Part shown: positions 17,154 through 18,566 of the stretch, in pieces
Layout of the letters: every line of letters starts with the position of its first letter
Position numbering within the stretch: position 1 is the first letter of the stretch
Source of the DNA: Nitrosarchaeum koreense MY1
GTDB lineage: Archaea > Thermoproteota > Nitrososphaeria > Nitrososphaerales > Nitrosopumilaceae
Reading direction: 5' to 3'
DNA length: 64,000 nt
Assembly: GCF_000220175.1 (NCBI RefSeq)
Contig: NZ_AFPU01000001.1
Coordinates: forward strand, 1,461,512-1,525,511
Program-made: the position numbers and the translations under genes
The notes under the pieces: generated by a model
Database searches by the model: none
Told to the model about the DNA's origin: nothing
What the model saw: only the letters and a program-made list of their open reading frames with translations

Positions 17154-17864
17154 TTGACAGAAGATTTTACAGAAGAGGAAAAAAAAGGCCTCTATAAGGC
17201 AATTTATTCTAGAAGAGATGTTAGATCACATTTTACATCAAGATCTATTGATGATGATATTTTAGCTAGAATTCTAAATGCAGCACATCATGCACCGTCT
17301 GTTGGTTTTTCTCAGCCATGGAATTTTATTTTGATAAAAGAAATGATTACAAAAAAGAAGATAAAAAATTCATTTGAACAAGAAAAAAGTCGTTCATCAA
17401 AATTAATTGAAGAGCCCAAAAGATCAAAATATCTTTCGTTTAAACTTGAAGGAATTTTAGAATCTCCTATTAATCTATGTGTAACATATGATCCAACTAA
17501 ATTTGGTCCATTTGTGATTGGTAGAACAAGTATTCCTGAAGCAGGGTTATACAGTGTATGCTGTGCAGTTCAAAACTTATGGCTTGCTGCAAGAACTGAA
17601 GGAATTGGACTTGGATGGGTAAGCATTCTTTCAAATGATGCACTTAAGGAAGTTTTAGAATTACCAGAACATGTTGTTCCGATAGCATATCTATGTTTGG
17701 GATATGTAGATGAATTTGCACAAAAACCAGATCTTGAAACTGCAGGATGGCTTCCAAGACTTGATCTGAAGGATGTAGTATATTTTGAAAAATGGCAAGA
17801 TACTGAGAATACAGAATGGAATCAAATTCAAGAGATGATCAAAACTAATCTTGATTACGCTTAA
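17154..17864 (+). CDS. bluB: 5,6-dimethylbenzimidazole synthase (BluB), nitroreductase fold
   Basis: It cleaves reduced FMN with O2 to make 5,6-dimethylbenzimidazole, the lower ligand of cobalamin. The 236 residues carry the BluB signatures YSRRDVRSHF, AAHHAPSVGFSQPWNF and the C-terminal IAYLCLGYVDEFAQKPDLET followed by GW. The start is a TTG at 17154, since no upstream ATG lies in frame. With cobJ at 29212 it indicates cobalamin synthesis by this organism, as reported for ammonia-oxidising archaea. The stop codon overlaps the TATA element of the next tRNA. Confidence 0.92.
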   Translation: MTEDFTEEEKKGLYKAIYSRRDVRSHFTSRSIDDDILARILNAAHHAPSVGFSQPWNFILIKEMITKKKIKNSFEQEKSRSSKLIEEPKRSKYLSFKLEGILESPINLCVTYDPTKFGPFVIGRTSIPEAGLYSVCCAVQNLWLAARTEGIGLGWVSILSNDALKEVLELPEHVVPIAYLCLGYVDEFAQKPDLETAGWLPRLDLKDVVYFEKWQDTENTEWNQIQEMIKTNLDYA

Positions 17865-17888: not shown

Positions 17889-17982
17889 GGGCTTGTGGCG
17901 CAGAGTCATTTAAGACGCGAAACTTGGATAGCGCAGTAGCCTCCTAAGTTACAGGTCGAGGGATCGAAGCCCTCCAAGCCCG
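17889..17982 (+). tRNA. tRNA-Arg (anticodon CCU) with a non-canonical D-loop intron
   Basis: Acceptor GGGCTTG/CAAGCCC is perfect. The D stem is GCGC/GCGC, the anticodon stem GTAGC/GTTAC with loop CTCCTAA (CCU, Arg), the T arm GAGGG-ATCGAAG-CCCTC, and the discriminator G73. The D loop is 29 nt instead of about 10. Removing 17904-17922 (19 nt) leaves AGCTTGGATA, a normal D loop with G18G19 and A21, and a 75-nt mature tRNA. CGC (17899-17901) can pair with GCG (17917-17919), and GTC with GAC, giving a relaxed bulge-helix-bulge around the proposed cut sites. A T run follows at 17983-17988. Confidence 0.9.
17904..17922 (+). other. Proposed 19-nt tRNA intron in the D loop
   Basis: The boundaries were chosen so that exons join as ...AG/CTTGGATA... 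to give a standard D loop. The 5' bulge would be 17902-17904 and the 3' bulge 17921-17923, flanking a three-base-pair central helix plus a G-A mismatch. The inner hairpin is GTC-ATTTAA-GAC. Exact ends may shift by one or two bases. Confidence 0.7.
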
Positions 17983-18035
17983 TTTTTTAAAAAATTATTA
18001 TTGCAACTTAAATACAGTTGTAAATGGTCAGAATT

Positions 18036-18566
18036 ATGAAAGTTGTAGTAATTTCAGGTAGTCCTAGAAAAAATGCAAATACTCAAGTGATAATGAAATA
18101 TGTTTACGAATATACTAAATCAAAAAATGTAGATACAGAATTTATCAATCTTTCAGATGGACAAATTGAATGTTATAGAGGACCAGAAGAAGAATATAAT
18201 GAGCAAACAAAAAATGCAGCTAAAGATATCATGGATGCAGATGTTTGGTTAATTGGATCTCCAATTTACAATTCATTTTTTAGTTCTGCATTGAAAAATT
18301 TGTTTGAATATATCAATTATAAAAAAACTGAAGGTAAAGTTGCAGGCATAGTAATTTTAGCCGCAAGTAATATTGGATTTATTGATGTACAAACACTCAT
18401 CACTCAATTATTATCATATTTTAGAGTAATTGCCAATCCTAAAGCAGTGTTTCTCACAACAGAAGCAATATCAGAAAACGCTATATCAAAAGAAGAGGAT
18501 AAGAAAAGATTAAGAGATATGGTAGATGAGACTTTGAAAATAGCCTCTAAATTACATCAAGATTAG
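18036..18566 (+). CDS. NAD(P)H-dependent FMN reductase-like flavoprotein
   Basis: 176 residues from the ATG at 18036. An upstream ATG at 18024 adds MVRI, but a CTTAAATA box at 18007-18014 sits 26 bp before 18036, favouring that start for a leaderless mRNA. The flavodoxin-like fold shows the FMN phosphate loop ISGSPRKNANTQ near the N-terminus and LIGSPIYNSFFSSALKN near residue 75. It probably reduces flavin or quinone-type acceptors in the cytoplasm. Being next to bluB, which needs reduced FMN, is suggestive but not proof of a link. Confidence 0.85.
   Translation: MKVVVISGSPRKNANTQVIMKYVYEYTKSKNVDTEFINLSDGQIECYRGPEEEYNEQTKNAAKDIMDADVWLIGSPIYNSFFSSALKNLFEYINYKKTEGKVAGIVILAASNIGFIDVQTLITQLLSYFRVIANPKAVFLTTEAISENAISKEEDKKRLRDMVDETLKIASKLHQD

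Follow-up and report, generated by a model that had tools for sequence, protein, structure and literature searches.

The analysed stretch of Nitrosarchaeum koreense MY1 DNA (64,000 nucleotides, referred to here as the window) carries a tRNA gene situated between two ORFs, and the coordinates of its features are collected in the table below. The anticodon CCU lies at 17943-17945 within a full cloverleaf, which confirms the identity tRNA-Arg(CCU) proposed in an earlier note on this DNA. By sequence reading, the acceptor stem is formed by GGGCUUG (17889-17895) and CAAGCCC (17975-17981), followed by the discriminator G17982, and the D stem by GCGC (17898-17901) and GCGC (17931-17934). The anticodon arm reads GUAGC-CUCCUAA-GUUAC and the T arm GAGGG-AUCGAAG-CCCUC. 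The strands of the D stem are separated by 29 nt (17902-17930), and an intron had been placed in this region by the same note, together with the statement that removal of 17904-17922 restores a standard D loop. Both points hold: without these 19 positions the 94 nt become a 75-nt cloverleaf with the D loop AGCUUGGAUA, identical to that of the intronless relative locus L065.

Table. Features of the tRNA-Arg(CCU) locus (window coordinates; a slash in a motif marks the predicted cut; ORFs named by sequence reading)
Feature	Coordinates	Strand	Remarks
tRNA-Arg(CCU) gene	17889..17982	+	Acceptor through discriminator, CCA not encoded; based on sequence, parse and cloverleaf pairing in relatives
5' exon, tRNA positions 1-15	17889..17903	+	
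D-stem 5' strand	17898..17901	+	GCGC; also exon strand of bulge-helix-bulge (BHB) helix H
Bulge 1	17902..17904	+	AG/A; putative 5' splice site 17903/17904; cut rule from text passages of PMC2738675
Intron, D loop, tRNA position 15/16	17904..17922	+	19 nt; relatives with variable inserts at the site or precise absence
Intron hairpin h'	17905..17916	+	GUC 17905-17907 x GAC 17914-17916; each of the 4 aligned hairpin pairs shows double changes
Intron strand of helix H	17917..17920	+	GCGA in the window; GCGC, GCGU, GUGC, GUGU, ACGC in relatives
Bulge 2	17921..17923	+	AA/C; putative 3' splice site 17922/17923
3' exon, tRNA positions 16-73	17923..17982	+	
Upstream neighbour, nitroreductase-like ORF	17154..17864	+	Conserved beside the gene whether the intron is present or absent
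Downstream neighbour, flavodoxin/NADPH-FMN-reductase-like ORF	18024..18566	+	

The comparison with relatives confirms a tRNA gene overlooked by two general tRNA finders. ARAGORN called two tRNAs elsewhere in the window but left out 17889-17982, and the Rfam tRNA model at its gathering score missed the gene as well. With permissive settings, Rfam matched part of it at 25.2 bits, below the gathering score of 29, and the intronless versions of the gene in three relatives reached 55.8-56.4 bits. A DNA search for the gene in 61 genomes (the host and 60 relatives) found matches in 57. Among the 43 loci read, 41 are Arg(CCU), L073 gave no pattern match, and L069 (G054) is tRNA-Arg(UCU)-like; in the latter the 5' acceptor strand was not found just upstream, which an intron, gene permutation or a break might explain. 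An insert is present in 34 of the 41 Arg(CCU) loci and absent from 7. A structure set of 33 loci was analysed further, with L073, L069 and L031 (identical to the window) left out. In the comparison of sister genomes that the earlier note suggested, the inserts vary at the same 15/16 site or are exactly absent: they are 17-29 nt long in the 33 loci, the flanking D-loop bases stay standard, and the D loops of intronless genes (AGCAUGGAUA, AGUAUGGAUA, AGCUUGGAUA or AGCAUGGACA) are of the kind given by insert-bearing genes after removal.

A common plan was recognized in 32 of the 33 loci, consisting of an AG/A bulge (AG/U in two), a hairpin of 3-8 bp, a 4-base strand that pairs with the D-stem 5' strand, and a second bulge of 3 bases; the exception, L060, conforms once its 3' border is shifted by one position. 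In the window, helix H (17898-17901 with 17917-17920) has 3 of 4 pairs, the fourth being G.A. Among 24 distinct relative sequences, H comprises 4 bp in 12 and at least 3 bp in 23, with two 3-nt bulges flanking it. All 4 pairs of the intron hairpin show double changes, and 91.7% of its cells are paired in these 24 sequences, compared with 88.4% for H; both helices together are 90.1% paired, against at most 50.5% in six slid registers. At the fourth H pair, 11 of 23 scored cells are unpaired. In the 24-sequence set the changes in H are confined to one side, as the D stem hardly varies. An exon-intron compensatory change was found in L152, where the D-stem strand GCGU faces the intron strand ACGC, so that C-G is replaced by U-A across exon and intron. 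When the insert was shuffled, H and the hairpin with at least 3 pairs each arose in 0.18% of shuffles, and the pairing observed in the 24 distinct relatives was reached by 0 of 5000. Minimum-energy folding of the window precursor alone gave no BHB; relative L048 does fold into one.

Inserts at the same 15/16 site also occur in family f10 in tRNA-Ile(GAU) (7 loci) and tRNA-Met(CAU) (1 locus) (L116, L117, L118, L122, L126, L128-L130). There, H pairs with the gene's own GCUC stem at 4 of 4 positions in 7 loci and at 3 of 4 in the remaining one, and against GCGC it would have one pair fewer in all 8. Relatedness of the Arg, Ile and Met introns by transposition was considered and is only a lead, as the AGUC..GAC ends of the Arg introns are present in L116 and L117 and not in the other 6 of 8. 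A wider count of Arg(CCU) loci, from which L069 was left out, gave 147 intron-bearing and 18 intronless genes; one broken gene (L120) was mis-parsed, leaving 146 sound loci with 76 distinct introns. This count includes 80 loci from 120 stretches among the matches listed, which may overlap with the genomes labelled G, and it is not evidence for the pairing, because the search pattern behind these 80 loci already prescribes part of the motif. Intron variants of the window's genus appear among the matches listed, in Nitrosarchaeum records (L194, L206, L216, L225, L226, L186) and a Nitrosopumilaceae record (L173). The window's exact insert is absent among the 80 loci of the matches listed, where the nearest records may be left out. 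Outside the wider count stand five Arg(CCU) loci of families f10, f11 and f12 (L119, L131, L132, L133, L137), which by eye seem to have an anticodon-loop insert in addition to that in the D loop.

The distribution of the intron was examined with a covariance model built on the 24 sequences and run on 330 genomes of the class. All 330 gave matches at E 0.001 or better, many of which are other tRNAs. In the window's family, the best match reaches E 1e-20 or better, the level of the intron-bearing genes read, in 161 of 185 genomes (rows counted by hand). For 13 the E value falls between about 1e-15 and 1e-19, and for the other 11 the match is weaker, the gene being missing or not found. Nine of the 13 intermediate genomes were read, and eight are intronless (genomes G035, G031, G023, G145, G147, G278, G148, G225; loci L063, L064, L065, L111, L112, L115, L121, L125). 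The ninth (L120, G168) has a broken intron-bearing Arg(CCU) gene with a 9-base T-arm deletion, by decay or an assembly fault. Within genus g19, matches at the intron level were obtained for 4 of 12 genomes and not for the other 8. Reading of further families showed genes with the insert in f8, f20 and f23, and genes without it in f2, f8, f14, f15, f21 and f23. Homologues of both window neighbours flank the intronless gene in G225 (L283), G145 (L285) and G035 (L281), and the intron is therefore absent at the orthologous place in these genomes. Elsewhere, L282 gave a match only to a more distant neighbour, L284 only to the upstream one, and L286 and L287 (intron-bearing, other families) gave no neighbour match.

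The borders 17904-17922 and a relaxed BHB at the ends, both put forward in the earlier note, agree with the structure described above. In passages of PMC2738675, EndA is described as cutting between the second and third bases of each bulge; applied to AG/A and AA/C, this rule places the cuts at 17903/17904 and 17922/17923, which are exactly the borders proposed, and they match the common register of the relatives. No outer helix h could be made out by eye, and the motif was therefore classed as the relaxed form, termed HBh' in passages of PMC6379350. It is not a canonical hBHBh' intron in the strict sense, which lies at 37/38, the position here being 15/16. The sequence of this one gene was also scanned for every intron of 11-45 nt whose H helix spans 4 positions and has at least 3 pairs: 17904-17922 ranked first by a thin margin (31.0 vs 30.5), and the borders accordingly rest on the relatives rather than on the single sequence.

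Taken as a whole, the locus almost certainly carries a noncanonical relaxed-BHB (HBh') intron at position 15/16 of tRNA-Arg(CCU), which would be cut by EndA and joined by RtcB. This reading is based on structure, comparative conservation, precise absence in relatives, and the presence of the enzyme genes. Retention of the insert would still allow the cloverleaf to form (in the intron-bearing genes, 100% of D-stem cells are paired), so that a mature tRNA with an expanded 29-nt D loop and a small hairpin might be imagined. This is very improbable, because a retained loop has no need of H pairing with the D stem, yet that pairing is kept through the compensatory change in L152; moreover, the insert varies in length while the flanking D-loop bases stay standard, and intronless orthologues have a bare D loop. 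The failure of both general finders and the T-arm deletion in L120 could be taken as signs of a decayed pseudogene with a chance insertion. We regard this as extremely unlikely: cloverleaf cells are 99.8% paired in the 24 distinct relative sequences, the gene occurs in nearly all family members, and the AGG codon is used, accounting for 36 of the 553 Arg codons counted in 60 ORFs of the window. In addition, no second Arg(CCU) gene was found in the host genome among 41 Rfam tRNA matches, which were identified by ARAGORN and, for L077, L083 and L084, by sequence reading.

A real intron might also be cut elsewhere, for example at 17905-17921 or 17909-17927, and some such alternatives come close in the single-sequence scan. 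Only 17904-17922, however, gives both a D loop of the intronless kind (18 loci) and the two 3-base bulges of nearly all relatives, the register of L060 being shifted by one; other cut sites are thus highly unlikely. A self-splicing group I or II intron was rejected, as 19 nt is too short for a catalytic core and no such Rfam match was found.

The earlier note held that a D-loop intron requires a splicing endonuclease of broad specificity, and the genes of the host fit this expectation. Two EndA-family proteins above the Pfam cut-off are encoded in its genome (L085 and L086), as in 59 of 61 family genomes sampled. In L085, the catalytic Y, H and K are present, and K35 aligns with K44 of Aeropyrum pernix EndA, the loop lysine to which passages of PMC6379350 attribute a role in broad specificity. 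In each of the 31 catalytic subunits compared, the loop YYGKP..KP (YFGKP in one) is found together with the catalytic triad of Y, H and K. L086 is a degenerate second subunit, with Gly for the catalytic His and with Tyr and Lys kept in the alignment; the residue roles in this comparison are assumed to follow EndA of M. jannaschii. Thaumarchaeota are described in passages of PMC4090602 as having alpha2-beta2 EndA enzymes. The host genome also encodes RtcB, which joins archaeal tRNA exons according to the abstract of PMC12135372. As predicted from these genes, the host would possess a heteromeric EndA with a broad-specificity loop, together with RtcB. Before splicing, helix H would form between the intron's 3' part and the D-stem 5' strand, and the intron would close its small hairpin, leaving the two 3-base bulges. 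The heteromeric EndA would then cut each bulge between the second and third bases, and ligation of the exons by RtcB would free the D-stem strand to pair with 17931-17934 in a normal D arm; cleavage, ligation and their order are proposed from the sequences.

Several known systems resemble this intron. PMC8450103 treats short BHB introns that lie outside 37/38 in tRNA genes of Thaumarchaeota; it counts 107 of these noncanonical introns, on which a separate thaumarchaeal BHB model of tRNAscan-SE 2.0 was trained, and the text passages of that paper name no D-loop case. The canonical archaeal intron at 37/38 shares the BHB motif and the pathway of EndA and RtcB, whereas the window intron differs in its 15/16 position, in forming H with the D-stem strand and not with the anticodon region, and in having no outer helix h seen. 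D-arm introns have also been described in Caldiarchaeum subterraneum, another archaeal lineage rich in tRNA introns, but passages of PMC3293823 detail tRNA-Thr(GGU) at 24/25 and 45/46 rather than Arg(CCU). The D-arm and T-arm introns of nucleomorphs and Cyanidioschyzon include D-arm introns of similar size; by the description in passages of PMC4090602, they differ in belonging to a eukaryotic lineage and enzyme. No paper naming an Arg(CCU) 15/16 intron was found in the text passages searched, supplementary tables lying outside that search. Thaumarchaeal noncanonical tRNA introns are already established, the window intron is one more example, and the understanding of tRNA splicing is unchanged by it. 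Because most of the family has the intron, several genomes lack it at the orthologous site, and the same site recurs in other tRNAs, these genes form a natural series for the study of intron gain, loss and adaptation and of the substrate range of thaumarchaeal EndA.

Since the intron lies directly 3' of G15, which we take to be the archaeosine site of tRNA-Arg(CCU), and H sequesters a strand of the D stem, splicing could serve as a checkpoint that times D-arm folding and G15 modification in this AGG-decoding tRNA, the intron being kept for that purpose. We consider this improbable. A protein of the host scores above the NCBIfam cut-off for TgtA, the tRNA guanosine(15) transglycosylase; if the checkpoint existed, lineages in which the intron was precisely and repeatedly lost would be those no longer bound to that order.

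The initiator tRNA iMet of the host (L084, G000:C1:1357880-1358040) fits a 15-nt D-loop intron with an AG/A type bulge and H AGCC:GGCU. By eye, tRNA-Gln(CUG) (L083, minus strand) and tRNA-Leu(UAA) (L100, minus strand) each appear to carry a D-arm insert and an anticodon-loop intron. As these three genes also fit or appear to carry D-arm inserts, the window intron is probably not alone in its own genome.
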